From Cristatella mucedo (lineage: Eukaryota; Bryozoa; Phylactolaemata; Cristatellidae), in contig WPIO01000003.1 of the NCBI GenBank assembly GCA_009760855.2, positions 8,330,001-8,394,000 of the forward strand: a DNA stretch of 64,000 bases, written 5' to 3'. Made by a program: the position numbers and the translations under genes. How positions within the stretch are numbered: the first letter of the stretch is position 1; each line of letters begins with the position of its first letter. Positions 1,150 through 52,466 of this stretch are shown one piece after another. A model generated the notes under the pieces. The model worked only from the letters and a program-made list of their open reading frames with translations, ran no database searches and was not told the DNA's origin.

Positions 1150-4100
1150 ATGGAGAAGGCGGCTAAAGTCTTGCGCAGGTGAGTGGGCACGCTAGGCCAG
1201 GACAGCCAACGAGCCGGAAGCATTCGGCCCCGAGCTCGTCGTCGAGCCGCCGAAGCGCGGCTGTCGGGGAGCAGCGGAGAGAATTCAAATGCTGCGTTTA
1301 CGTCTCGCGCGCGCGCGCATCGCTCGGCTAGACCTCACCACTCGCCCCTCCCCCTCCCCCACCGAATTGTAGGAGCGGCGCCAAGCTGATGGCTTTAAGC
1401 GACGGCGGCTCAGCCGAGCTGCGCATCGCCATGTCGGAGACGGCCGACGTTCGGAGCGCTGCGCGGACGTTCTCCGAGTCGCAATCTGCAGGTACCGCTC
1501 GCTCGCTGGACCGCGGCTCGTTGGACCGGGCCGCCGCCGCCGACTTGCCGTTAACCGACAGAAGTCTTAACTCGCGCGGGATGTGAACAGCGGCCGGCCA
1601 TTCTGCCGATCGGCCCAGCTCTCCCTGCTCTCGGCTGCTGCTTTTCGTAGGCGGCGGCTCAGCAGCAGCAGCAGCCCCCCCCCCGTAGTCTGCTACCGCC
1701 GCCAGTTGGTGGCTTGCGATCGGCGACTTGCCCGCAGCGATTTGCCTCCGGCGATCGCCCCAATGCGGTTAGATGCTCACTTGCGGCACTCACTGGGCGG
1801 CCGAGGTCTTGCTGCGTCGGTGCTGTCGCTAGGTAGGCTGCCAGTTGTATTTAGTTCTGTTTGCTCCTTCTTCATGAACGCTGCCTGGTTCGGGACCGCT
1901 AGACCTGTTGGTGTCGATTGATTGCTGCCGACTGGATTGGTAGACTGCATTCGTGCCTGGAGCTGTGATTTCTTTAGCTGCCCTGGGTTCGCGGCTCCTG
2001 GCAGGTCTATAGCATCCTCACAGATTTGTGCGTAAGAAGACGTGAAGTAGATTTAACATGCCGCGAGTCTCAGTAGCCTGCAGAGACTGAGCAGTGAAAT
2101 TGAAGGGTATCCACAGTTTTGGAAGTGAAGTAATCACTTAACTTTGCCGGCAGACCCTGCGACCTCGACCCTGCCTTGGCATTCCATTTGTATTTTTGAG
2201 CCTACTTACCAAGAATAGGCTGACTTGAATAGATTTTGAGTGACCTTGTGACTGGCGCAGCATTCCGTATTAGTTGGTTTGTGTGTGCTATAATCTGAGC
2301 TCTTGAAAGCACAGCCCTGCTTGCTATCTTATTTTACCATGAATTTCTAGCTTGCAGGCACCTGGTGCAGTGGTCGATCAAGCAAGGGAACCCAGCCATC
2401 CAGGTATGATCCTTTTTTGAATTCTTGTCCGAGATTGTAGTCCATAAATGAGAATCTCCGCTTGCAGAATGAATGATATCCTTTGTTTACATGCAGTCAG
2501 AGTGTGCTCTCTCCTTAAACGTGATTGGTAGGAGCAACTGGTGAGCAGCCAATCAGACTTGGCCTTTTCAGAGCAGGTGCTAGTGACCGTTAGCTTGCCA
2601 TCTGCTTGACCATAGTGCTCCATCCTTTGTTCTCAAGCAAGTGCTTGCAGCCCAGCTTTCGCCTCACATTCCAGACCAGCTGCTCTTTGTAGGCAGAGGG
2701 TGATAATCAGGACCCAGAAGAACCTTGCGTTAAAGCCTATTCTCTTAATTTCTGCTACTCAGTTACTTCGGTGCATTGAGGCCATAGATGCCGAGTTTTG
2801 TCGGAGAGGTCCCCTGCCCACAGGTCACTCCTCGCGTGTCTTGCTTTGACAATGGCGGTATAATAAATTGCTTCTGTTTCAGGATGTATCGGTCCAGATG
2901 GAGGAACTGAATCACCTCCTATCCGAAGCCATTCTCCAATACTCCGGTAAGCAGCTCTATTTATGATCTTTTATGGTAGCGACAGATAGAATGCAAGCAG
3001 CTTTTTAAATAAATCACGAGACAGCTGTTTCAGCTCTGCAGACATAATTAAAACCCATGGCTCACACTAGTTAGTTCGGTTTTGTACTGTCGCCCTGCAC
3101 ACCGCCCTATCTTTTGGAACTGCCCCTAAGCATACCTGAAGCTTTAGCTCATATAATGAATGATCAGTAGATGGGATCACCCTCAATATTGGTCCCTTAA
3201 TGTCTGTGGGAGTGCCTTTCAATTGCATGCTGGAACTATGATTGCTGACATCAAATTCGAGAATCGATGAGAAAATGCAACTTATGCTCAAGCTTTAAAT
3301 TTGACCTTACCCGGATAGAAAATCGTACTTAGGTTGAAGGGACAAATTCTTTCTGGCTGCCCTTGGGGGACTGCTGTGCCGTAGCCCCTCATCTCAATGC
3401 CCAGCTCCTGGATCGGAGACGTGTTGTAGACATCTTGCTAGCTCCAGGCTTGATATAATAGCAGTCCAAGTCAACGGACCGATTTTGTAAGGCATCGATG
3501 CTTACTACTTGGGAATGCCACTTACTTAGCCAGGGGTGCTTTATGTGCATGTACTATGCCAGAGGTACTTTTAACGTACGTGCAGGTAGTCAGGAATTAT
3601 GCACTTAAAGCAGCGGCCAGGCCAGGCCAGGCCAGGCCAGGCTAGGCCAGGCCAGGCTAGGCCAGGCCAGGCTAGGCTAGGGAGCATGGCTCGATTACAG
3701 AGATTTTTCCCTGCGTTTTGCTGCTTCTGATCTTCGCCAAGCAGCAAGGGCTACATCTAGCCACACTGACCTTTGTATCGTTGCACCAAATGGCTACTGT
3801 TATTTGCAAATATTGTCTTTGCTCACAGTAGCTACGTTTTTGGGCTTGCCTGAGCAATTACTTAAAAAACAAAAGCTCTTCACATGAAGTGCACTGCTTA
3901 AGCTGCAAGCATTACAGTTTTCCCTGCATGTTGTACCCTGTACTTACATAGAAAAAATTCTATGCCAGGATCTGCCGTCTTAACTGGTGTACCGAGTCAA
4001 CTCACATGTAATGTCTTAAAATATGGTAGTTAGCCAGTACAGGCAACAGCTAGCCAGTGTAGGCAGCAGTTAGCCAATATAGGCGACTGACAGCATAAGC

Positions 4101-7100
4101 ACTAAGGTGCTGTTGGAAAAGGAACTGCAGCTGCACCAGACGCATCCAATGTATCAGCTCCTGGCCTTTTATTAATCATTATCTTAATCACGACAAGCTA
4201 TACTTGCAGAGCCCAGCTCTACCACCCAACCCAAGGTTTTAGTGAGGCCTGATAAATAAACTGTGGTAGCCTTATTGTACACTAAGATCTTAGATTGTTT
4301 TACAATCTGTGGAAATATTACCCCTGATCATCAAAAGATACAATCATGGTTGGGCCTAAAATCAATCAGTCCGCAAGAGCCACTCGAATGATCAAAATGG
4401 TCAATGCTTTCTCGAGCAGGAGTCTGATACAGTAGCTAGCCCTTAGCCACTGCTTTTATTTAAAAAGGCATGCAATATTTTATCTAATGTCTGCCGAACA
4501 AAGCTGGTGTGCACACGTGCACACACTCTCGTGCATACAAGTGCGGCTGCAGGCCCCTGTCTGGCTCCGTACGAATGGAAGTGTCGAGTTTAGTAAGTGA
4601 GTTGAGTAGACGGTTTTCCTCAGCATTGTAGTCGTGTCCCCGTTGCAAAAGCTCGTGCAAAGCAGCCAATTATGATCAACTGGCGTTGGCCTTGCAATGC
4701 ACAAAAGCAGCCGAAAAAGCAAATTGCAATACGGCGATGCATAGGTAGGATACCTGCCTCGACAGATGATCGATCTTTTTGTGCCATCAGATGCTAGTGG
4801 ACTAAGGGTGGGTGGGGTCGGCTCTGCAGCTAGCGGGCGCTCGGAACAGCGACGGCAGCTTCATTCTATTCTTCCAACCACTCCATCCTTGCAGCTAGTG
4901 CCAGGTATTTTAGCGAGGTCTTCCCACGCCTGTATATGCCATTTTCCCTAGCACTTGCTAAACAAATCGTGTGTGTGCACGTTTGTGTGTGCACGTCTGT
5001 GTAGGCATGTTTGTGAGTTGCGCACTCGTGCACCTGAAGTATGCAAGTGTGTCTGCCGACCTCGGTCAGGCTGCGTAGGAATGCGAGCGTCGAGTAAGTG
5101 TTGAGCTGATGGTTTTCCCTCAGCATTTTAGTTGCACCCTCTTTGCTTGCTCGTGCAAAGCAGCTAATTCTGAGCACTGGTCATTGACCTTGGAATCCTC
5201 AGGGGAAGCCATAAAAGCTTATTGCAATATTGAGGTGCACATACCTGGGATACCTGAGGCGACGGACGATCGATCGTATTGTGCCATCCGACGCTGTCTG
5301 ACTGGGGGTGTGTGCGATCGGCTCGCTAGCAGTGCCCATCTACCCTTCCAATCAATCCATCCTTGCAGATAGTGCCGGGTATTTCAGCGAGGTCTTCGCA
5401 CGTCTAACAGAAGACGAACGTCGTCTAAACCGGCTAAGAGAGAAAATGGTAAGCCAAACCTCTATCGCATGTTTAGTGACCGCACAATTCTACTGTAACA
5501 TGCATTATGTGAATAGTGGGTAGTGCATGCTGTAAGTGCAACTATTGCAGTGTCTTATCATTTTTATATAGATAGCTGGCACGGCAATGGCACCCATTCT
5601 TAAGTTCTCAGATTCTGGGCACTTGCATGCAATATGAGATACTAGATGCAATATGAGCTATGATAAAGCATCGCTTAACATGCCTGCTCTGCATAGATGG
5701 TCTTAGTGCCACAAAAGCTATCGTAGCTGTGGTTTCTAGTTTAGATGCTGTAAGAAGGTTAAATCGGTCGTTTTACTTTCGCCATCTTTGTAACTACATC
5801 ATCTGCTCGGCAGGCGCTTGCAGTCTGCCGATCAAGCTGTCGGTGTACCCCTCATAATTTGCTGCAGACATGCCACCAGTGCTGTGTAGCCGTGCCTCAA
5901 GGGCCTGGACGCTCTGCTTGTTTTGTTTGGTTGGAGCCCTGTGCTTTAGTCTGAGCCTGAAACTGCATCAGTAGGGCGTGGTTTTCGGGTGCTGTGGGTG
6001 GCTTAATTTATGCAGTCACGCGACGTCATACTGGATGAGTGCCCATTCGAATACAAACTCACTAGAATTTTCAGACCTCCACATAGTGTTTATCCTGGTG
6101 CATCTTCGAATTCGCTTCCCGTAATTGCTTACTCTAGTTAATGTCTAAAAGTTAACGCAATTTTTTGGTTTGTAGTGGATTGGCTTTCGTATGCCAAATG
6201 CCTGGAATAATGTAATGACAGAACTATTTGACACTGTCTCCGGTGATCATGTGCTTGCCCTGTGTTGCACTAAAAGCTTGTGGACGTTATTCTGGAGCTG
6301 TAAGACAGTAGTTAATTAACATTTTCCAATTATTGACATCTTTTGGCTATACTGGTGCGTATAAAAGCTTGGGCAGACGATAGTTTTGGGTGCAATTGAA
6401 AATTCTCAATCTGTTTAACTGGAAACATGAACAATGGGTTAGTAGAAAAGAGCACAAGTATAGGTTAAGCAACACGTGAATGATTTGTGTAATGTTGCGA
6501 AAATCGTGTAGGATATAGTAACTATGCACAAGGAGAACGAGAAGACTCAATTAAGGTGTGTCATGTCTAAAAACTTGTACCTCGAACATAGAAGACTGAC
6601 GGCCTACTCGTTCGCCAACTTTGGCAGACAGTTGAAAGGCGTCAGGCCTGCTGCCACACACGGGCAAAGACAGCATTCCGAAGCCATTACTCCGAAAGAG
6701 CAAACTACCTGGAGAGTTCGTGTGCAACAGTGCACCTGTTACAGCCAGTGCATACCACTGGCCGCACATCCAAAAGGGGTCGCTGATTTCACAAGAACCT
6801 TTTTTGAGAATGTCGAACATTGTGTTTTATGAGTAAAAAATTCATTAGCAGGCATCGGTAGAAACTTGCTGTCATGTTCCGGCTATCACTCACTTTCTGG
6901 CAGTATTTTTACTTACATTCAATGCAATCATCGCGGAGAAGCTTGCAGTTTGTGAATATGCGCATGTATTCGGATGTCATTGCGAGTATGCTCCTAGTTC
7001 CTTTCAGTCAGTTGCAGTCTGTAGGAGTCAGGGCACCCCTGTTCCGCCGCCGACCTGCCTGTGCTGCTGTGCTGGCTGTGCATGCAAGGACTCGAGGCAG

Positions 7101-9522
7101 GCGAAAGCCAATGATTGAACCATTCCCTGCCTATTGAGCTGCCAAACGATGTCGGATAATCCTTGCTTATGGCATTCTTAGCCGAGTTTCTCGGGTCGGC
7201 TCCCAGCCTGCTGGTCTCCCAGGCTGCTGCTCTCTCTCTCATTGCCCTCTCAAGGTCAGGGCTCGAGCCTCTCGGGTCGGGCTGGACTACAAGCTGGGCC
7301 GATGGTGTGACCCTGGCGTGCATGGCTGGCCTGGCCTGGCCACATCTTTTGGCTGGCTGTACCAGATTGGAAAGTCCTAGATGTGAAATTAGTCTGTCAA
7401 ACCTTTTCGTCGCACTCTTTGGGCTCTTTGCAGGCCGACACCGAGAGGAAGGTCAGCAGGATGCGGGCCGAACTGAAGAAAGCTCTCAAGGTGCTGATTG
7501 CTCACATTAGATCGGCTGCTGCTGCTGCTGCCACCACTGCCACAATTCCCGCAGCTGCATCGAGTGTCTCTATCGCATTCTCTCATCCTGTATTGTAGAA
7601 ATCCTCTTCGGACAAAGTTCGCCAACTGGAGACCAAGCTGTCCGACGCCGAGCGAGCCAGAGGCGTGCAGCAGATCGAGCGTAAGTTAGCGGGCGTCGCC
7701 ACCTCCCTCTGCCTGCCACCTCGCTCTGCCTGCCGATGCGGCACGCCTGCAGCCGGTCGGGGCCGTTTTGCAGTCGCCGAGGAGACGCGGGAGAGCGATG
7801 CAGTGAAGAGCATTCGCTTCAAGCAGGGTGTTCTTCGGCTGAGCCAGGCCGGCATTCAGTTCGGCCTCAACTGCATATCCATCTACGAGGCACTGCAGGT
7901 GTGCTTTCCAATCCCTCTGCCCTACTAACCCGCCCCCTACTACTCGTGACAACAATTGATATAGCATGCGGCCCGGCCCGTATGTGCTGCTACGAACAGG
8001 CCCTAGATATGTGTGCACCAGCCCACTCGTGTGCGTGCTAGCGCTGGCAGCAGCAGCAGCGCCGGGCAGATTAGGAAGCTAGGAGTGTCCGTGTCCGAAG
8101 GACTGCTGACTATCGTGTTTGACTTTGGTGGCCTTGCATTCTTTAGCCTTTGTGCCCGCAGCGGTTACGTGCCCAGCTGCCCTTCATAGCCATCGTTGCC
8201 CTGCGTTCGTTTGTATGATGGCTGCTGCATCTCTGGTCGTAGGAGGTGGCAAACCAGGTGCCTGACGTGCACGATCCGGAGCCTGCAGGTCTAGAATGCA
8301 GCGGTATGCACGCGAGCATCCCAAGCCATGCCATCGGCCTGCCTCTGAGCTGCTGCTGCACGTGTGCCAGGCTCATCAGCGTGACGTCAGCATGACGACG
8401 CCACACACGCTGCTGCCTCCTTCTCGTGACTTGGGGGTGCACGTATGCCGAGCTCATCAGAATGAGCCGACTCGCGTTTCCGCCCAGGTTTTGCCGCGAT
8501 GCGGCAGCGAGTGGCCCGAGCGAGGCAAGAGGTGGAGCAGGGCTCGCTGCTCCTTGCTGCCTCCTCTGACAGCCGCGACCGCTCGCCTCGCGGTCACATG
8601 CCGTCGTCCGGTGCCGTGGCGGCCGACAGCAGCAGAGCCGAGCCGACGACGGCTGCAACGCCGTCGTCGTCGTCGAGCGGCCGCAGCTATTGCTGCTGCG
8701 AGCCTTCTCTGCCGCCAGGTACGGGCTGCTGCCGACTCTAAACGCGGCACGCCTCCCTCGTGGCTCCCCTGCTCCCTGCTTTCCTGGCCAAGTCACGTGG
8801 AAGCGGCCGCCTGCAGCAGACGACGTATCCTTACCATCCCTACCGCTGCTTCAACGCCTTGCACGTTTGCAGCGGCGGCTCAGGCCGACGTGCCACCGCC
8901 CTATAGTCCGGGCTCTTACGAGGAGCGCTCATCGAAGGCTGGGAGCTGGAGGCGCAGGAGCCGTGGCAGCTGCCACGGCGGCGTCGCCGGCGTGAGAGCC
9001 GATGCCAGCGTTTCTTTGTGCGACGCCGAGGCTCCGTCGTTCGTGGCCCTCGCAGCCGTGTCCACTCCCAGAGCGCCGGCTGCTGCCGGCTGCAGCGGCG
9101 GCGATGCCACTGCATCGTCCAGTGGCTACTTCAGTGTCGCCGAGTCGCCCGCGGCAAAGCGATCGTCGTTTGCTGCTGGCGAGAGTGCCACCGCTGCCGT
9201 ACAGCGGTGGCAGCCAACAACGCAGCCGCCGCCCAAGGAGCCGCCCGGCTCACCTTCGAGTGAGCCCGATCGCCGGCCCGGTGCCGGTGGCTTGGCGACA
9301 AAGCTGCCTGTCGTCGACGCATCGACATCGGTCCATTCGGACGCCGGCCGGCCTGCGTCTGAATGGATCGATGTGCCCTCGCCGTGCTTCGATCGGCCCG
9401 TCGAGCGACAGATCCTCTACAGAAACGTGGTCACATCGACGCCCCTGTGCCGCCAGGCCTCGACTTTGTCATCGACCAGCCGACGTCTGCGTCTGCCGAC
9501 TGCCATCAGCAGTCCGGACTAG
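1150..9522 (+). CDS. Ten-exon coiled-coil protein with BAR-like N-terminus (Pil1/LSP1- or FAM92-like layout) and PPPY tail
   Basis: Exons: 1150-1178, 2358-2403, 2883-2946, 5369-5448, 7434-7490, 7599-7680, 7774-7898, 8243-8288, 8488-8718, 8873-9522. All junctions are GT-AG, the phases agree, and the total is 1410 nt (469 residues plus TAG). The start at 1150 is chosen because exon 1 ends in a consensus donor (CAG|GTGAGT) that joins exon 2 in frame. Residues about 1-176 are amphipathic and heptad-rich: a QW-containing N-terminus, EELNHLL, LTEDERRLNRLREKM, an RMRAELKKALK basic stretch, then a helix ending GLNCISIYEALQ. This order resembles membrane-bending BAR proteins, nearest in my memory to fungal Pil1/LSP1, less so to FAM92/CIBAR. 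Residues 177-469 are low-complexity Ser/Ala/Pro/Arg with PPPYSP at 261-266, a potential WW-domain ligand. The exon model is firm; the family name is an inference without a search. An alternative start is ATG 2896. Confidence 0.72.
3614..3681. repeat. GGCCA/GGCTA pentamer tandem array
   Basis: Tandem pentamers, mostly GGCCA with interspersed GGCTA variants, spanning about 67 bp in intron 3 of the BAR-like gene. The variants recur in a GGCCA-GGCCA-GGCTA higher-order pattern, suggesting expansion of a 15-bp block. Confidence 0.9.
4484..5440 (+). repeat. Diverged tandem duplication (~480 bp unit) spanning the intron 3/exon 4 boundary
   Basis: The block from about 4484 to 4935 aligns with about 4960 to 5410. 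Shared landmarks in the same order: CGTGCA/TGTGCAC-rich start, a segment with GGTTTTCC(C)TCAGCATT, CTCGTGCAAAGCAGC, TATTGCAATA or AATTGCAATA, GGATACCTG followed by CGACAGATGATCGATC or CGACGGACGATCGATC, TTGTGCCATC(A/C)GA, and finally CCATCCTTGCAG followed by exon 4 sequence. The copies are clearly diverged, so the duplication is old. Confidence 0.85.
4895..4931 (+). pseudogene. Relic copy of exon 4
   Basis: It follows an intact-looking acceptor (CCATCCTTGCAG) and matches the first 35-40 bases of exon 4 (5369 onward), encoding SARYFSEVFPRL against SAGYFSEVFARL in the live exon. After that the match stops: the rest of the exon and its AAAATG|GTAAG donor are missing. The only nearby GT gives the wrong phase for exon 5. 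It is therefore probably dead rather than a mutually exclusive exon. Confidence 0.7.
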
Positions 9523-10975
9523 GCGCCATCCTCTCTCTTTCCATCAAGCTGTTGCCTATCTTCACGGTAGCTTGGCCCCTTCCGGGGACCCATGTCCCCT
9601 GGCTCGAGGTAGCTGCGACCTTACGTTGGCCCTTACGTTGGCCCGTACCGTTATCCTCTGACGTACCGCTACAACCACCCTGTGCAGTGGCTCGTGACGC
9701 AAGTCGTAACGCAGAGCAGCACGGCTTGATGCAGGGCAGCACGGCTTAATGCAGGCAGCAGCCAGCCGAAGCTTGCCTCGGTATGTACACTCGCCTGGAC
9801 TCGAGGGATTGACTGCTCACTCGCAAGAAACTGGCTAGGGCTAGCATCTGTGCCGTCTTGCTCGTTTTCTCTCTGCACGTCACGACGTGTCCCTGCCTTA
9901 TTTCTCCTTCCTCCTGAGGTGCTCTGCTCACGTGACCGTGAAGCCGCTACCGGCCGGCTGCTGCTTGGAGCGTCGGCTGCTGTTGGGCTCCGGCTCTCTC
10001 CCCTTTTCCCCGCTCTATTTCGGCAATCGATCGAAGCCACCTGAAGCTTCGAGAGTCTTCGACATCGATTGTCCCCGAGGCTCGTCGCTCTTCTCGCGTT
10101 TGCAGACCCTGTCCAGGAAGAAGCGGCTGTGACCCTCCTCCACAAACTGGACGCTGGCTGCTCGTTGGAAGGCTAGCCAGGCGGCTGCATCGGCCAGCAG
10201 ACGTGCGTTGGTCGGACGCGGGTCGGCGATGTGTTCATTCTAGTCACACTGTCTATCAGCAATACACCTCTGCGGTCGGCTCAGGCAATGTCAGTCGACA
10301 TGGCCTGACAGGAAAGCAAAGCTGCCGATGTGACAGCAGTGCTAGTGGAGGTGGCAGCCTTACCGGTGGGCCTTACCGGTGGCGTGTTATGGCTTCCAAC
10401 CAATCGCCAGGAATTCTGCCCTGTGGAGCTTGGGCTGTTGTGTTGAGTGTGCAATCGTGAAGGCTGACGCATGCATCTCATTCTCCCTGGCAGCGACGGT
10501 TTAGCCGTTTCATTCAACTTTCACTATGCCACGTGGGAGGCAAGTTGGTGTGTCGGCGTCACCCACTACCTCACCTCTCTTGATTTAAGGGTGCACCCCT
10601 TCGAGTACTGGCAGTGAGAGGGAGATGGACTCTCGACTTTGCAGGCTGTACAATTAGTTACTGAAATACGGTGTAATTTATGTTTTTTGCATGCTGGCCT
10701 CTGCCAACTGTGATAGGCTAAGATAGGCAAGGTACCTTCACTGCTTGGTCCGCATAAGTGGCAACTTTTTTTCATTTAAGCATGTGCAAGACATGAGCTG
10801 CCTTTTTTTTGTAAGTACCCCCGACTCGACCGTAGAACTAGAACTAAGACAGTGTGCATTGGTCATACTGACGAGGTATAAGCTATATTTTTACCCATGC
10901 CATCGGCTTGGGCTTAAGGTGGTTTTGCAAGATACCATGCAATAGTAAGTTCAATGAGTCTCCTTGTGTGCTTGC
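9523..10975. other. 3' flank of the BAR-like gene, probable 3' UTR at its start
   Basis: Composition stays GC- and CpG-rich to about 10400, as in the last exon, then turns AT-rich. Open frames here lack family motifs. Short direct duplications occur (TTACGTTGGCC twice near 9623; GCAGCACGGCTT twice near 9716). I could not place a convincing poly(A) signal. Confidence 0.35.
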
Positions 10976-17577: not shown

Positions 17578-19175
17578 TGATAATAATAATAATAATGTAC
17601 TTGATAAAGCGCCCTCAGAGAACTTAATCTCTTTCTAGGCGCTTTACATTTGCTGCAAAGTGAAATGCAATTGAATGATAAGTAAAATCATGCTTGAAAA
17701 ACAAACAAAATGAATAACATGGTTAGGGGTGACATGCACAGGGTCAGCATGCCAATGTGGTTAGTGGCAGCATGCACAGTGTCAGCACGCATAAGCACGT
17801 GAAGGACGAATCACAGGGACCCACTAAATGCTGTCCAAAATAGGTGTTTTTAAGTTCCTTTTAAATGTGGTCAGCTCAGGGGATGTTCTGACGCAGGTCG
17901 GGAGGGAGTTCCAGGCTTTGGCAGCATACGAACTAAATGCACGGTCTCCAAAGGATTTAAGGTTTGTATGAGGTATTTGTAGACTGTTGGATTCCGAAAA
18001 GCGGGTGGTACGATGCTTGGCCTGATGGGGGAGTATGTCGGAGAGATAGGCTGGAGCCATAGAATGAAGAGACCTAAAAGTGAGCGACAAAACCTTGAAG
18101 TCAATCCGTTGCTTGACTGGTAGCCAGTGCAGGTCGGCGAGAAGTGGAGTAATGTGGCAACTGTGACACTCACGACAGACAAGCCTAGCTGCAGTTTTTC
18201 ACCACCTGCAATCGCCTGATCGCACATGCTGGTAGGCCAGTAAGCAGTGAGTTGCAGAAGTCGAGACGAGATGTCACGAATGCATGGACCAACTTAGACG
18301 TGGTATCCTTATCTAAACAAGCCCGAATTTTAGCAATGTTATGAAGCTGAAAATAGGCAGATTTGATTGTGGAGCTGATATGGTCTTCTAACGAGAGGTC
18401 GCTTTGGAATATGACACCTAGATTTCGAGCTGATTCAACTGGAGATGCTGGCAGAGCCAATTTTGAGAGACAGCCTTTCCGATCTCTGAATCACACTGGG
18501 TTTGCCCATAACTAGTAAGTTAGTTTTGTCATCGTTTAGTTTTAGAAAATTTGCTGCCTTCCATGTGCGGATGTCATCAATGAATGCAGCAAGTGAGTTT
18601 AGAGAATTCAAGATGCTCGAAGGCTGGGAGGGATCAAAGCAAAGGTACAACTGAGTGTCATCCGCATAGAAGTGAAAGTCTAGATTGTGCTTGGCAATCA
18701 CATCAGCAAAAGGGAGAGTATAAACCGTGAAAAGAACCGGACCTAGCACGGAGCCCTGAGGTACTCCATATTTCAGAGGTACTTCAGATGATCTTTGTCC
18801 ATTCACGTCAATACTCTGGAGTCTCCCACTGAGATAGGACCTGAACCACTGCAGAGCAGTGCCAGTGATGCCCAGGCGAGATGAGAGGCGCTCTAGAAGA
18901 ACTTTGTGATCGATGGTGTCAAAAGCTGCCGAAAGATCGAGCAAAACAAGCAGAGACACTCTACTCATGTCTGCATTCTTAAGTAGGTCGTTGTATACCC
19001 AAAGCAATGGTGACTCTGTGGAGTGATTAGCTCTAAAGCCAGACTGGAACTTACTAGCAAGGTTTGAAGTTTCAATATATGAGTTCAGGTGGTCTGCCAC
19101 GACTCGTTCCAGTGTCCATGATCCAAATAATTTTAGTATCGAACTGCAGGTACACGAGAAAAATGCTAATACATA
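17578..19175 (-). mobile_element. LINE-A, 5'-truncated non-LTR retrotransposon with reverse transcriptase (Jockey/CR1/L2 group)
   Basis: It reads right to left. The 3' end carries (ATT)n (seen as TAATAATAAT at 17578-17596), then the terminal hairpin with arms 17606-17613 and 17638-17645. The ORF is broken into at least three frames. 19181-18435 holds the RT core: SGFRANHSTE, LVLLDLSAAFDTIDH (motif A), PQGSVLGPVLF (motif B) and YADDTQLY (motif C, the catalytic Asp pair). 18460-18185 reads LGVIFQSDLSLEDHI and TSRLDFCNSLL. 18090-17824 reads LHSMAPAYLSDIL and SFGDRAFSSYAAKAWNSLP. This end-of-ORF order is typical of L2/CR1-like LINEs. The endonuclease is absent through 5' truncation. Confidence 0.93.
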
Positions 19176-19181
19176 CGTCAC
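18435..19181 (-). pseudogene. LINE-A reverse transcriptase core fragment
   Basis: A 248-codon open frame inside the LINE-A copy. All catalytic RT motifs are visible: Asp in LVLLDLSAAFD and the Asp pair in YADD. The upstream endonuclease and linker are lost, and the thumb/C-terminal part has shifted to other frames, so the protein is not functional as it stands. The initiator Met falls in non-LINE flank sequence and is accidental. Confidence 0.9.
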
Positions 19182-19597
19182 GTAGGGTCATGTCAAAAAG
19201 GTGGACAAGTAGGGCCACTTTGCATGGAGTTTGTTAATGCCTTGGCATCAAGAGGACTGGGGTGCTCGTACCGGCTGCCAGTATTGTGCTCTGAACTGTG
19301 GCCGTTATGACTGCCTGACTTGCTCTGCACAATCACATAAAAAGAAACCCGTGTAATGAAGTAGACTTTTTTATCGCAATACTCGATCTGTCCTTGCCTA
19401 ATTTATGACATACAAGTCAGCCAAGGAGACAGCATAATATTGAAAAGCGATCCGCAATTCATTTCAGGGCATTTTAATACAATAACCCAAAACCAGCATT
19501 TGTAACAGCTGAGCAGAAAAACTATACAGGTTTGTATGTGAAGATACCAACACGCACATCCCCCACACCCACCCACCCACTCACACACACTGTGTAT
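19176..19597. other. Non-coding flank of LINE-A
   Basis: No gene or repeat copy recognised. Confidence 0.3.
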
Positions 19598-33708: not shown

Positions 33709-34864
33709 TCACTTGGCTGAAACCAACGTGATGACATCAAACGATGTAATCCGCAAAGCCGGCGTGAAAGCGTACGAGGCGCCCGAACCGAGTTTCGTTT
33801 GCCAGAGGCAAAGTAGTGGGGTCGGGAGGCTCTGACGAAGGTGATTGCCCTGAAGTTGGCGTAGGTGATGTCCTCGGAGATGGTGCAGCCGGAGATTCCT
33901 GCGATGACGTGGGTATGCCTGCCTGCTTCGATTTGGCTGTCCTCGACGTATGCGATTGGTCGATTGAGATCCATTCGGCTGTCGGCGACGGTTAACGGAA
34001 AAATGTTTTTCTGCCCATTCAAGCACAACGAATGGGCCGTCGTAGGGTGGCTGAAGTGGTCTTCGAGCAGCATCGTGGCGTACAAAAACCTTGGGACAAT
34101 GCTGCAGGTCGTCGGGAACGTAAGATGGGCGGTCCGAATTTCGAGGCGGTACAGCTCGGAGGCTGTGCATGTGCTCGATGAGCGTCGTGACAAATAGCGT
34201 TACGTCTGAGCTGTCGGCCGGTGCCTCGGGCGCACTGAAGAAACCTCCGGGCAAACAAAGGGACTCCCCCCCCCACACTAGCTTGGCTGCTGAGTGGCCG
34301 ATGTCACACTTTTCAGCAGTGTGGATTCCGAGGGACAGCGCCTTTCGCCATGAATGTGGCGGGCTACTTGCAATGAGTGCTGCCTTGAGCTGTCGGTGCA
34401 GGCTCTACCATGCCGTTAGCGGCCTGGTGGTAAGTGGTATTTTGTACATGCCGTATTCCAGTGGCCTTCATGAGTTCGAGCCACATGAACGACTCAAATT
34501 GTCCTCCTTGGTCGGAAGTGAGCAACGCGGGGTCGGTCAGAGGAAACGCTTCAGGCCAGCATGTGAAACGGTCGACGACCGTAAGTAAATAGGTCGCACC
34601 GTCGGAGTGGGGTAGGGGCCCGACGAGGTCGACGTGAACATGACTGAATCGACACGATGGGGTGGGGAAACTTGGCCCAATGGGCGTTGAAGTGTGCCGA
34701 ACTACTTTGGTGAGTTGGCATGCGATGCAGGTTCGAGCCCAAGAGCGAACGTCGGAATTCAGATTCGGCCACACTAACCGCGATGCGATCAGACGCAGTG
34801 TAGCTCGTATTCCTGGGAGTCCGGGCAATATGTTGAAGATTCGTCGACGGAAGGCAGCAGGCAC
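33709..34864 (-). pseudogene. Gypsy integrase
   Basis: The minus strand reads RSWARTCIACQ (zinc-binding CxxC), HVDLVGPLPHS (first catalytic Asp), LTSDQGGQF (second Asp) and NGMVEP (Glu of the DDE triad). In another frame follows VFVRHDAARRPLQPPYDGPF, the C-terminal SH3-like segment that ends most Gypsy integrases. The enzyme inserts retrotransposon cDNA. All three catalytic residues survive, but a frameshift near 34370 separates the core from the C-terminus. Confidence 0.9.
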
Positions 34865-35156
34865 GTACGGTCGATCGTGGCCGGTAGAGCGGTCGCATAA
34901 AATGGTTCCCTGCGACGTCGGTAATAGAACCGGTTGAAAGTGCAGGGAAGTAGTTGGTGCTGCCAGGATTTCGGGCTCATTCGCGGCGCGGCGGCGAGCT
35001 GTAATCGATAGGGTCGTCCGTATCGAAAACAGTGTTAGCTTGTGAAAGTGTGTCGGCGACGCAATTCTCAGAACCCTTCAAGTATCGGGTGTCGGTAGTG
35101 AATTCGGATATGAAAGCGAAGTGTCACTCATGCCTAGGTGCGAACCGATCGGATGA

Positions 35157-35860
35157 TTAAACGATTTCGTAAACGATCGATAATCGGTGAGCACCGAGGA
35201 AGCCCGGCCTTCCACAAAGTAGCGGAAATGTCGGATCGAAGAGTAAATAGTGAGAAGCTCTTGGTCGAAAGTCGAGTAGCTGTTGCAGAGCGGGGCCGAT
35301 AGCGGTGTCCGAGGCGTCAGTCGCGATTAAAATCGGTGCTTCGGGCGCCGGATGGCTAATCAGTGTTGACTCGGTCAACGCAACTTTGCTGCGCTCGAAG
35401 GCAGCGGTCGGTAGGAGCGAATAGAGCAGCGCCAGCAAGCTTGTGCAGCTCGGGATGAATTGTCGGTAAAAAATGACCATGCCTAAGTAGCGACACAGTT
35501 TTCGTGCTGTATCGGGTCGAGGGAAAGAAACGATCGACTTAACTTTTGATACCTGTGGTCAGAGGCCCTCCGAGGATACATGGTGTCCGAGGTAATCAAG
35601 TGATGGAACACCGAGGATGCACTTAGATGGATTGATGATTACCCCATATTCCTCGAGGTGACCTCGAGGAAGATTGCTTCTAGGTGCGTGGCATGCTCGA
35701 CCTCGCCCTCGAGTTACCTAGCCGAAACGTTGAAAGGTCTGGGAAGCATTCCTGAGGCCAAAACTCATTCGCTTGAATTGAAACAGCCCGAATGGCGTGA
35801 TTACGGCGGTTTTAGGGACGTCGTTGGGATGAATGGGTATTTGATGATATGCTCGCACGA
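35157..35860 (-). pseudogene. Gypsy reverse transcriptase palm/RNase H portion
   Basis: Across frames the minus strand shows GVIINPSKCILGVPSLDYLGH, PDTARKLCRYLGMVIFYRQF (after the palm) and PILIATDASDTAIG (start of RNase H). The stretch that should hold the YIDD-type catalytic pair, between the TFQRF-like block (about 35735) and the EHATHLEAIF-like block (about 35700), is not there. The copy therefore could not make active RT. Confidence 0.8.
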
Positions 35861-35868
35861 GATCGAAT

Positions 35869-36714
35869 TTAGAGAAAACCACCTTGCCATGTAGAGCAGA
35901 TGCAAAATCGTTTAGCAGCGGTACAGTGTAACAATCGTGCTTGGTGGTGTGATTCGAAGCACGATAGTCGCCCGCAAGGGCGCCAATCGCCGTCCTTTTT
36001 GGGTACGAGATGGAGAGGACAGGCGTACTCGCTCTCCGACGGCTCTATTATTCCCAGCTGCAGCAGCATATGCTCGAATTCCACGCGAGCTGCTCTCAGG
36101 CGGTCTGGAGCCAGGCGACGAAGGCGGGAGGGGCAGGCTTGTGACGATGTGGAGGCGAACTGAATGCTTGACCGGTGCAGAGGTTTCCGGGTTGCGTGAT
36201 GCTTGGGAATCGGCGAAGCAAAGCAGCACAGTCGGCCGGAGTTGAGTCGAAGGGATGCAGCAGAGATGATAGGGCGTAATCGACGAAGTAAGCTAGCACC
36301 TCTTTCGAAGCTGAGTGCAACGTCGTATGATGAACGGTGCTCGAGGTCTACGATGAGCCCGAAATGAGCAAGGAAATCGGCGCCGATGAGAGGGTACGAA
36401 ACATCGTCTACAGAGAAAACCCAGGAGAGACTCCTTCGAATACCTAGGCTCAAGTTGAGGAGTCGTGAGCCGTATACTGCAATTAAAGAGCCATTGGCAG
36501 CCTGTAGATAAGACAGGGCAGGGCGTATCCTCTCGGTAGCATTCGGTGGGAGGACACTAACCGCCGAGCCCGTGTCAATAAGAAAGCCCATGTCAATAAG
36601 AAAGCCCATATCCGTGTCGGGGTCGTGTACGAATAGTAGGCGGCTAACTTCATTCCCCGGCTGTGGCGCCGCCTGTGCTAACAGTCCTGGTTCCTGTTTA
36701 AAGGAAACTTGCAA
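35869..36714 (-). pseudogene. Gypsy protease and RT N-terminus
   Basis: The minus strand encodes an aspartic protease: LFVHDPDT, then FLIDTGSAVSVLPP (catalytic Asp in DTGS), then IGADFLAHFGLIVDLEHR. The RT fingers follow: FEHMLLQLGIIEPSESEYA, PLHLVPKKDGDWRPCG. After DWRPCG the frame is wrong and the DYRRLN-type continuation is lost. A repeated MGFLID unit precedes DTGS: an 18-bp in-frame direct repeat at 36572-36610. Confidence 0.92.
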
Positions 36715-37068
36715 CCCGGTCGGCAGTGGAAAGCCTTGTCCCCAATCAGACCCCTGTCCTTGAGCAACCAGCTCGCGGTCGGAGCTGCTGTCTGCTAGGG
36801 AAATTGCAACGAAAACGGTTGCCAGTCCCCGAACCTATCCTGGTTGGAGATGCACCTATTATGGTTGGAGATTCGGAGTTCTTCTCGAAGGGCTAACACC
36901 TCAGCTTTCATAGACTGTAACTCTGACAATAAGCAGTGCTGCTCTGCTCGGATGTAGCCGAACTAGCGGCTAATAAAGGCAGCGTCTTCGGTCACGTTAT
37001 GGTGGCTGGTGGTGTAACGGCGGCTAGGTAACGTGCCGAGGCTTCCAGCATGCGGTCGGCCATTTCCA

Positions 37069-37506
37069 CTAGCCTGCTAAGGCTGAGCGTGGCGTCGCAA
37101 CCCGATAGAACCATCCGGACATCGGCCGGTAGGCGCTGCAGGAACAGTTCGCGAAAAAGGGTTCACCAAACCGGTCACGTTCATCGCCTGGCAGCTGCCG
37201 TAAATGCCGGAGGAACTGAGTCGGCGTGCGATCAACGAGCGGCTCACTAACGAGTAGCCGGCGCAGATGCAGTTGCTCGGAAGCTGAAAAAGGTTGTAGT
37301 ATAGCCATGCGTAGTCGATCATATCGGTCGTCATCTGGAGGGTTTGTTATGAGGTCGTGAAGCTCATAAATCGTTGGCTCACCTGTGGCAGACGATGTCA
37401 GGCGGACCTTAGTTCTCTGGTCCACAATTTTCAAGAAGTTAAAATGTGACTCGACACGGGCCAGCCAAAGTGCCGGGTCGTTTCGAAGAAATTCCGGCAA
37501 CCTCAC
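37069..37506 (-). pseudogene. Gypsy gag (capsid-type) fragment
   Basis: MRLPEFLRNDPALWLARVES opens like the capsid of many animal Gypsy elements (P.F...DP.LWF..VE..F). It continues with DLITNPPDDDRYDRLR, ASEQLHLRRLL, DRTPTQFLRHLRQL and the LPGDE block. The N-terminal Met lies where family members start. The reading frame is lost after CSCSAYRP, and no zinc knuckle is visible afterwards. Confidence 0.88.
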
Positions 37507-37602
37507 AGGGCGGTAGGAATCTGCATCGCTAGTTTCAGATTTAAGTCAAAGGATTGTTTGGTAAAGGAATACATACCGTTTTCGAATCAGCGTGAAGGTC
37601 AC

Positions 37603-44540: not shown

Positions 44541-44778
44541 AATTTTGCTGCCCAGAGCCCCTCTCGTTCTCTATTTGTGCTCGAGACCTCGGCGGGCTTT
44601 AGTCGGTGCCTATGCGCTGGCGGACTGCCGAACAGGTCGTCCCCACCTCCCTATTCGATGCGCGCTGCCGTCAGCTCGAGGGCTTAGCCGAGAGCTCCCG
44701 TTATTGCTCTGCTCATTTGCTCCTGCCGCATACTGGCTGCTGCCACCTCTGTCCGAGCAGTTGGCAGGCCAGGGTCGC

Positions 44779-44801
44779 TCTCTTTCTCTTTCTCTTTGCA
44801 G
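44779..44801 (+). promoter_or_regulatory. Possible 3' splice acceptor in the leader of the CENP-H-like gene
   Basis: CTCTTTCTCTTTCTCTTTGCAG is a strong polypyrimidine tract plus AG, 55 bases before the chosen ATG. It suggests a spliced leader exon upstream, so the gene may have a 5' UTR intron. No unique donor can be fixed. Confidence 0.4.
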
Positions 44802-44856
44802 CCGCTGTACGGTGTCCACCTTGCCTCGTTGGCATTCAGCCGCGTGTCATTTGATC

Positions 44857-45600
44857 ATGGCGGGGCCACCTGCAACCGGCAAGCTGCACGGCGGTGGCGA
44901 GCTGTACGACGCACGGGCGGACGCCGAAGTGGCAGGCTTCAGCGAGGCCAGGCTGGCCCGGCGGTGGCTGTCGCTCGCCGCAAAGCAGTGGCGGCATCGA
45001 GCACTACCGGCCATGCCTGCAGCAGCAACGTTTGAGCAAGAGCGACTCCGCTTGTCGGCACTCACGGCCGCCGAGCTGAAGGCTTGTGAGCAGAAGTGCA
45101 AAGCCGAGCTGGTCGAGCTGGTGGCCGCCTGTACGGTGGCAGAAGCCCGGCTCGACCGAGCGACCTCTGGCAGCAGCCCAGCCCCGGCAGCGCCAGTAGT
45201 GGGCATCGCAGCAGCGAGTCCGTGCCGTCGGCTCACTGGCCAGGCCGCGGCCGATCGGAGTGCTGACCTGTCCACCGACATCGCAGCCGTACAGACTCAG
45301 AGTGCTGCTCTTCGTGCACGCTTGTTGCAACTCAGGCGGCAGAGCGCCGAGGCCGCTGAGCGAAACCGGGTTGCAGCTAGACGGCTTGCCGTGTGCCAAG
45401 CACACGCCAAGGAGAGCCACCTCCAGATGGCCGAAGGCGATGACGAACAGCAGCAGCTGCTGGCCGCTGCTCGTGCTCGCGATATGAGGGCCGAGAAGGT
45501 GCGCGTCGTCACCAGCGTGCTCCGGGGACTCGTCTTTGCGTGCCGCCTGGACTGGGCCGCCGACGAACGGCTAAAGGCCGCCGTCCTCGACCTCAACTAG
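44857..45600 (+). CDS. CENP-H-like kinetochore protein, intronless coding region
   Basis: 247 residues. The ATG at 44857 sits in a strong context (A at -3, G at +4). The open frame runs back in frame to 44545, but that part is low-complexity and holds a splice-acceptor-like site, so the inner ATG is preferred. Residues about 66-115 (EQERLRLSALTAAELKACEQ...) and 145-225 (ALRARLLQLRRQSAEAAERN...) are long amphipathic helices. The C-terminus reads VVTSVLRGLVFACRLDWAADERLKAAVLDLN (two blocks), which parallels the LILGS.VNWAEDP.LKEIVLQLE end of vertebrate CENP-H, including the central W. Length is close to vertebrate CENP-H. CENP-H works in the inner-kinetochore CCAN complex with CENP-K/I/M. The absence of coding introns beside a ten-exon neighbour could mean a retrocopy, although no poly(A) trace is seen. 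The call rests on recalled family features. Confidence 0.6.
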   Translation: MAGPPATGKLHGGGELYDARADAEVAGFSEARLARRWLSLAAKQWRHRALPAMPAAATFEQERLRLSALTAAELKACEQKCKAELVELVAACTVAEARLDRATSGSSPAPAAPVVGIAAASPCRRLTGQAAADRSADLSTDIAAVQTQSAALRARLLQLRRQSAEAAERNRVAARRLAVCQAHAKESHLQMAEGDDEQQQLLAAARARDMRAEKVRVVTSVLRGLVFACRLDWAADERLKAAVLDLN

Positions 45601-50804: not shown

Positions 50805-52466
50805 AGCGCGAACAAGAGCTGTTCGGAGGCGGGCTAGAACTACTTTGTCCTGGAGCAGTGAGCCAGAGAGGAGCGTCAGTGCGGTTAGAGAGCAAGAGCT
50901 TAAGAGCAAGCCAGGAAGCTGAGACCAGCGGTGGCGATTCGGCCTTTAGAAGTGGTCCGATACGCGCGGAAGCTGCTGATTGATGTTGGCTGGCCTGTCA
51001 ACCTTCGCCATCACTCTGTCCAAAAAGAATTGTCTGGAACCCATTCGCTATTCAAGCTGGACAGAGGGGACATTCCAGTGGCCTCGTGCCGGTATTAATT
51101 CCTTACTGTAATGGGCCCTGGTGTCGGGCCCAATACCACTAAGCTCTTGCCCCATTGTCTCAGCTAAGTATTAAAGAGTCGAGCGACGCTCGCTCTGTGT
51201 CTTTGGTCTCCTCTGGTCTTCTGTCCGGCTCTGCGCTTCGACGCCGTCGGACTCGTTTCTCTGAAAGCGAGGGAGGAGGGCGGGCAGTCCGCCGACGATG
51301 GACGGAACAGGACAAAACAGCGCTAGGAGGACTCGGTGGACTCCACCGAATACGGTCGTATCGCGCCCGAGCTGGCATTTTGTGTTTTTTTTGTGTTTTG
51401 TGTGTGCGCGCTTGCACGTGGTCTCGGCATAGGGATTTGCCGGTGCGAGCTAGACGTAGTTGGCGTGTGTGGAGTCCTAGTTCTCCGGTTAGAGTTTAGG
51501 CTCCGATTCGAGCTCTGTCTACTTGGGTCGTTCCCCATTTTAGATGTGAGCAGTTTAAGTGTGGAGACGTGTTTCCTCCGCAGGAGTGCTTGAGTTGGCG
51601 TGTGGGGAGTCCTAGTTCTCCGGTTAGGGTTTAGGTTCCGGTTCGAGCTCTGTCTACTTGGGTCGTCCCCAATTTTAGACGTAAGCAGCTTAAGTGTGGG
51701 GACGTGTTTTCTCCGCTGGAGTGCTTAAGGTGGCGTGTGTGGAATATTCCTGCCGCACTGGTGGAAACCGAGTCCTAGTTCTCCGGTTAGGGTTTAGGCT
51801 CTGGTTCGGCCTCCGCCTATTTGGGTCGTTTCTATTATACACGTAAGCAGCCCCAGTGTGGAGAAGTATTTCCTCCGCAAGAGTGCTCGAGGTGGCGTGT
51901 CTGGAGTATTCCTGACGCACTGATGGAAGCCGAGTCCTAGTTCTCCGGTTAGGGTTTAGGCTCCAGTTCGCGCTTCAGTGTGGAGAAGTATTCCCTCCGC
52001 AAGAGTGCTTTAGTTGGCGTGTGTGGAGTATTCCTTCCGCACAGGTGGAAACGGAGTCCTAGTTCTCCGGTAAGGGTTTAGGCTCCGATTCGCGCTCAGT
52101 GTGGAGAAGTATTCCCTCCGAAAGAGTGTTGGTGCTGTTGAGAACGTGCGAGGAGTGTGGAGATAAAACTGAGCTAGACGCACAGCGATTTTGTGCGCTT
52201 GCGAATAAAGTTCAGTAAAATCCCCAATTTGTGTGTCTCGCTTTCCAATTCACGCCGCGGACTCACGACCCCCTTTAGTAACGGTAAGCAGGTCGGCGCC
52301 AGAAATGCTCGTTTCGTGGCGGCCAGCTTATTGCGCGTAGGCGCGCACCGAACGGCAGTAGGCGCTAGGTTACGCCGCTAGGTAAGCGGCAGGTCAAGCC
52401 TACTCCGCCGAGCCTTCGGCGTTACAATTTCGTGCAGTTGCTACATTAGATATACTGAGGGAGCCG
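50805..52466 (+). mobile_element. LTR-like insert with internal tandem array inside LINE-A
   Basis: LINE-A sequence is continuous when this 1.66 kb is removed, and ATTTT sits at both edges (50800-50804, 52467-52471). Inside, TGTAATGGG at 51107 and CGGCGTTACA ending at 52426 form the TGTAA...TTACA ends of an LTR of about 1.32 kb. A purine run (CAGAGGGGACA) precedes the LTR. GAATAAAG at 52203 is a plausible poly(A) signal. I find no protein domain. Sequence outside the two LTR-like ends but inside the insert suggests internal retroelement flanks were kept. Confidence 0.5.
51459..52140 (+). repeat. Tandem array of ~110-160-bp units
   Basis: Five units start near 51459, 51595, 51729, 51890 and 52013. 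Each has TGGCGTGT(G)TGGAGT, then GAGTCCTAGTTCTCCGGT, AGGGTTTAGGCTC, GGTTCG or GATTCG, and AGTGTGGAGA with CCTCCGCA. Units 3-5 carry an extra TATTCC.CCGCAC.GGTGGAAA segment; the later ones lack GTCTACTTGGGTCG. It lies within the LTR-like sequence. Confidence 0.9.

Follow-up and report, generated by a model that had tools for sequence, protein, structure and literature searches.

A long helical N-terminus with sub-threshold similarity to the Pil1/LSP1 BAR domain in an unclassified protein of the bryozoan Cristatella mucedo

The yeast proteins Pil1 and Lsp1 (PF13805; PDB 8qb7, 3plt) form the core of the eisosome, and according to PMC11324527 residues R126, K130 and R133 of Pil1 bind PI(4,5)P2 while K66 and R70 bind PS. 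BAR domains of this type may be invisible at the sequence level, a precedent being Saccharomyces cerevisiae Ssp1, whose Pil1-type BAR domain is described in PMC12470953 as missed by sequence search and revealed by structure prediction. In animals, eisosome-like membrane folds are described as the meisosomes of nematodes (PMC10010689), the authors of that paper stating that direct orthologues of Pil1 or LSP-1 are absent from animals. The gene analysed here lies in a 64-kb stretch of the C. mucedo genome (the window, meaning the whole of this stretch). An initial annotation had described it as an animal gene whose N-terminal half is laid out like the Pil1/LSP1 BAR domain, with two possible relationships, either to Pil1/LSP1 or, in diverged form, to the FAM92/CIBAR proteins. 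Our verdict leaves the product unclassified: it is an animal protein whose long helical N-terminus is compatible with a BAR domain.

The ten phase-consistent exons of the initial annotation were reproduced in full, with nine GT-AG introns of compatible phases spanning 1150-9522 on the forward strand (Table 1), and the motifs quoted in it are present in the translated exons. Joined, the exons amount to 1410 nt, encoding 469 residues plus a stop codon; the span first given for the gene, 1150-8288, comprises exons 1 to 8 (the N-terminal ~177 residues), but the gene runs on to 9522. The model is a prediction from genomic DNA alone, made in a 64-kb window of one species. When all GT sites of the window were ranked with a simple custom consensus score, 7 of the 9 donors fell above the 96th percentile, the weaker two being those after 7490 (89.9th percentile) and 8288 (65.1th); the alternative exon 8 donor is in phase, ranks at the 94.3th percentile and would add 5 residues. 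Exons 1 to 8 have a G+C content of 0.64/0.36/0.71 at codon positions 1/2/3, which is a coding signature, and exons 9 and 10 (0.63/0.69/0.74) do not have the low G+C at position 2. Since this signature is absent there and 4 of 1000 Markov resamplings of 8200-9700 equalled the 418-codon open frame in which the last exon lies, exons 9 and 10 are less strongly supported. The search for alternative joins covered the 5' end and the exon 8 donor, and intron 1 was found to offer 169 open, phase-compatible alternatives for the 5' end. Together, the joined exons and their codon-position composition show a real-looking, intron-rich animal protein-coding gene with a product of about 470 residues, and we regard the initial observation of it as confirmed.

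Two further observations concern the introns. Intron 6 (7681-7773) consists of 93 bases and is in frame and stop-free, lying in an open frame of 7599-7928, and its retention would insert 31 residues. In intron 3, a short tandem GGCCA-type repeat occupies 3615-3681.

Table 1. Exons of the gene and candidate alternative exon (positions in the window; helix statements come from a crude helix-propensity profile)
Feature	Position	Strand	Remarks
Exon 1 (initial annotation)	1150-1178	+	ATG, MEKAAKVLR plus split codon; first coding exon uncertain
Exon 1 donor		+	CAG/GTGAGT; 100th percentile
Candidate alternative exon	1373-1491	+	Begins at 1373 if internal, at ATG 1389 or 1431 if initial; joins exon 2 acceptor at 2350
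Exon 2	2358-2403	+	HLVQWSIKQGNPAIQ; alternative start 2351
Exon 3	2883-2946	+	DVSVQMEELNHLLSEAILQYS; helix propensity high
Exon 4	5369-5448	+	SAGYFSEVFARLTEDERRLNRLREKM; helix propensity high
Exon 5	7434-7490	+	ADTERKVSRMRAELKKALK; basic, helix propensity high
Exon 6	7599-7680	+	KSSSDKVRQLETKLSDAERARGVQQIE; most Pil1-like stretch
Exon 7	7774-7898	+	AEETRESDAVKSIRFKQGVLRLSQAGIQFGLNCISIYEALQ; helix propensity low mid-exon, high at both ends
Exon 8	8243-8288	+	EVANQVPDVHDPEPA; better donor at 8303, 15 bases downstream
Exon 9	8488-8718	+	Short helical stretch FAAMRQRVARARQEVEQ first, then Ser/Ala-rich tail
Exon 10	8873-9522	+	Ser/Pro/Ala/Arg-rich, VPPPYSPGSY stretch; stop TAG at 9520

No Pfam family scored over its own cut-off with the 469-residue model or its N-terminus. 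The curated cut-off of PF13805 (Pil1) is 27 bits, and this family scored 11.0 bits with the full 469 residues (E 0.3), 13.8 bits with the N-terminal 177 (E 0.043; residues 6-127 against profile positions 80-195 of 265), 13.1 bits with the model using the 8303 donor and 13.0 bits with exons 2-9 alone (E 0.076). With the candidate alternative first exon the values were 17.0 bits (E 0.0045), 16.5 bits from its shorter start, and 18.3 bits (E 0.0018) for a trimmed 155-residue segment. By score, then, the protein falls outside PF13805 in all versions, at 11.0-18.3 versus 27 bits. Among Pfam families at E<=0.3, Pil1 gave the longest match (116-134 residues); DUF1090, MIT, Sec8_N and others had E values similar to or better than that of Pil1, yet matched no more than about 95 residues, e.g. 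MIT (PF04212) with 16.8 bits over 41 residues, under its 30-bit cut-off. FUSC was the exception on length, with 132 residues at E 0.49 versus 116 for Pil1 in the search with exons 2-9. Profile searches against both candidate families, suggested in the initial annotation, thus yielded a sub-threshold match to PF13805 and none to PF06730 (FAM92) at E<=10; the proposed relationship to Pil1 keeps the longest collinear match at E<=0.3 but stays under 27 bits throughout. This Pil1 match we regard as supported but below the cut-off.

None of 22 decoys (5 window-shuffled, 5 reversed and 12 with residues exchanged within chemical class) matched Pil1 at E<=1, nor did four natural or artificial controls, namely tropomyosin, FAM92A, a CENP-H-like exon and the reversed core of the bryozoan protein (with one surplus letter); for apoA1, Pil1 was absent among the best 25 of 50 families, down to E 0.049. 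However, since the decoys gave at least 5 matches at E<=0.01 to other families, down to E 0.002 (among the best 25 of 48 families), E values near 0.002 are optimistic and unsafe for sequences of this kind. Scores of about 12 bits with PF13805 also arise by chance, since a Pfam table in PMC4089355 contains a non-significant 12.2-bit match of this family on a tapeworm cystatin.

For pairwise comparison, the letters of yeast Pil1 and Lsp1 were verified against the PDB chains. MAFFT aligned the segment of the bryozoan protein with both over the whole domain (24-26% identity, 43 columns common to the three rows, 46 of 193 aligned pairs identical with Pil1), a collinearity to be read alongside two facts: of the 265 profile positions, the Pfam local match reaches only to 195, and natural helical controls score nearby. 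Landmarks common to the bryozoan and yeast proteins are a Trp at Pil1 position 89 and the stretch LE..L..AE....V....L...TR. Loops fall in equal places, KSSSDK with KDPQSPK and PDVHDPEPAGFAAMRQ with PGETRPAYDGYEASKQ, and a final P-rich loop is followed by a short C-terminal helical stretch, with GFAAMRQ against GYEASKQ. The bryozoan protein differs from Pil1/Lsp1 in its Ser/Pro/Ala-rich tail of ~290 residues, and a Pil1-like pre-BAR N-terminus is only putative.

In end-free global alignment to Pil1/Lsp1, the initial model scored 113 and the version with the alternative exon 120, values reached by 0-5 and 0-1 shuffles, respectively, per 1500 of each decoy type; FAM92A, a real animal BAR protein, scored just 71, reached by 55-87 of 1500. 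Divided by part, the signal was z 3.6-4.0 from exon 6 onward and 2.2-3.1 in the part before exon 6, with little (z 1.7-1.9) from exon 7 onward alone. A local profile of the two yeast sequences, run with filters off, gave 6.6 bits for the initial model and 9.0 bits for the alternative, reached by 2-23 and 0-12 decoys, respectively, per 2000 of each type. When a profile of the yeast Pil1/Lsp1 pair was run against the 177,635 sequences of the PDB, 9 non-Pil1 sequences scored at least 10.3 bits, over at most 72 profile positions. Profile-profile comparison with the two-sequence Pil1 profile returned a probability below 1%, a profile of two yeast sequences being uninformative here.

How much of this signal is specific can be judged from natural helical proteins. 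Against shuffles, exons 2-9 gave z 4.2-4.6, the CENP-H-like piece 3.2-4.5, apoA1 2.1-4.1 and tropomyosin -0.9 to 2.5. In raw scores the core of the bryozoan protein had 110 with Lsp1 and 92 with Pil1; reversed Lsp1 gave 93 and tropomyosin 80-86, and apoA1 and tropomyosin themselves reached 96 and 94 with Lsp1. When Pil1 was circularly permuted in 37 ways, the highest score against the core was 92, the same as for the true order, and in local BLOSUM62 alignment tropomyosin (70-71) ranked above Lsp1 (67) and Pil1 (53). Since unrelated helical proteins give like values, shuffles overstate the significance, and the z-scores were rejected as proof of homology; much of the pairwise Pil1 signal is what a long amphipathic protein yields in any case.

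These controls bear most directly on the possibility that the protein is an animal coiled-coil or other helical scaffold with no BAR fold, its likeness to Pil1 reflecting amphipathic charged helices of similar length. We consider this a serious contender, although somewhat doubtful: proteins of no known Pil1 kinship show a similar excess over shuffles and nearby raw scores, short coiled-coil families match about equally well in Pfam and the Pil1 lipid pocket is not conserved (see below), but neither the 22 decoys nor the 4 controls with full lists match Pil1 at E<=1, and the match extends over a long span in which the loops sit at equal positions. The reading that we tentatively place first, while holding it open to reversal, is that the protein descends from Pil1 and forms a helical dimer of the BAR type which binds membrane, PPPY lying in a disordered tail; Pil1 homology itself, judged from these sequence comparisons, we rate as slightly less likely than not.

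The alternative exon in intron 1 lifts the Pil1 score, but 530 of 3000 shuffles of its own residues match its alignment score. Since other phase-compatible joins score as well or better and so many shuffles equal it, the exon was not accepted and was rejected as proof of a Pil1 N-terminus. By eye, the product of one alternative join, MEKAAKVLRRSGA, resembles what we take to be the Pil1 N-terminus (the amphipathic helix, Pil1 39-48), the choice of exon being unsupported. A PDB search with the protein version containing this exon returned two AI-designed TIM barrels, matched over 33 residues around the exon (E 3.3e-7 and 6.9e-7), which we take as a composition effect; beyond these, matches had E 0.039 or worse and included no BAR protein.

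Where Pil1 has R126, K130, R133 and K66, the aligned residues of the bryozoan protein are S, A, T and T, respectively, so that these lipid-binding residues are not kept, and R70 aligns to R within the uncertain alternative exon. The protein has a basic stretch of its own, ERRLNRLREKMADTERKVSRMRAELKKALKK (ERRL...ALKK), with a net charge of +8. Since the lipid pocket is unlike that of yeast Pil1, the protein need not build eisosomes, and any membrane binding would, from the aligned residues, use a surface other than that of Pil1. For the Pil1-descent reading we envisage the following: i) the first ~200 residues would make up a domain of long helices, the likeliest identity of which is a single, diverged BAR domain of Pil1/LSP1 type, ii) its dimer would be held together along the helices, iii) basic patches such as ERRLNRLREKMADTERKVSRMRAELKKALKK would lie on an acidic membrane, and iv) the PPPY stretch in the Ser/Pro/Ala-rich disordered tail could recruit WW-domain proteins. 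The VPPPYSPGSY stretch of exon 10 is presumably of the PPxY type and the tail around it probably disordered; the BAR fold of the helices, the dimer, the membrane binding and the function of the tail we only infer.

It is unlikely that the protein has diverged within some other BAR group (sorting-nexin/Vps5-like or similar) or belongs to an unnamed animal BAR family, with Pil1 nearest by accident. In favour of this are a helix layout that suits a BAR domain and the observation that FAM92A too matches, below threshold, a BAR family not its own (Vps5, E 0.00058); against it, Pfam showed no other BAR family at E<=10 and no BAR protein was matched in the PDB. There, the best match to the N-terminus of the initial model had E 0.0037 and was not a BAR protein, and a mixed profile of the bryozoan and yeast sequences matched no other BAR protein at E<=10. 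Quite improbable is a wrong gene model, in which some exons, mainly exon 1 and the two G+C-rich ones at the end, would be misjoined: the first exon has alternatives, exon 8 has a better donor and the last two exons have no low-GC2 signature, but the strength of the donors, the phases and the codon-position composition of exons 1 to 8 speak against it. Lastly, the other relationship first proposed, that of a duplicated or diverged FAM92/CIBAR protein (PF06730; PDB 8ceg, 9uhd), animal BAR proteins with a helical domain of similar length and with a gene in this genome, is refuted and has next to no likelihood left, with no PF06730 match at E<=10, an alignment to FAM92A at chance level (reached by 302-502 of 1500 shuffles per type) and a true FAM92 gene elsewhere, on contig C561, two exons of which (L005:1501-1623 and L006:1501-1614) score over the family cut-off and are identical to the FAM92A chain of PDB 8ceg at 21 of 37 (57%) and 17 of 39 (44%) positions in local alignments.

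Within the C. mucedo assembly itself (572 Mb in 688 contigs, the window lying at 8.33 Mb of contig C332), the protein had four matches at E<=0.001, all at this locus. A Pil1 family search of the same genome gave no match, and since it gave none in 14 control genomes either, it is uninformative. No relatives of the protein were found in viral contigs, where yeast Pil1 had none either, or in contigs of prokaryote genomes; since these collections are not animal, such absence means little. As the collections searched contained no relatives, no family profile of the protein could be built. In the literature, animal Pil1 was absent among the matches listed, which covered titles and abstract openings, with subscription journals mostly outside.

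Elsewhere in the window, the plus strand carries a 352-codon open frame (44542-45597), the C-terminal part of which matches CENP-H (PF05837, E 1.1e-13), probably an exon of a kinetochore gene; this and the FAM92 gene on contig C561 fit a genome that is probably animal. On the minus strand lie the remains of an LTR retrotransposon (34367-37545), with matches to DUF7041 (E 9.6e-17), weakly to aspartyl protease, and to Integrase_H2C2 and rve, and a reverse transcriptase open frame (18438-19187; RVT_1, E 5.7e-25). A tandem array at 51458-52128 has overlapping periods of 122, 135 and 162 bases.

Ssp1 provides the closest parallel for a Pil1-type BAR domain beyond the reach of sequence searches, although it differs in being fungal and in having, as described in PMC12470953, a predicted structure and mutant data; any connection between the meisosomes of PMC10010689 and the present gene would be hypothetical. 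If the protein is merely of the coiled-coil kind, this is an ordinary unclassified gene. It is possible, although we hold it with some doubt, that animals possess a Pil1/LSP1-type BAR protein lying beyond the reach of Pfam, with the yeast lipid pocket lost and a long PPxY tail fused. If so, one lineage or more would have to be excepted from the printed statement denying animals a direct Pil1 orthologue, the fold of the eisosome scaffold would date to the split of fungi and animals or earlier, and the gene would offer a way into the study of furrow-like membrane domains of animals.
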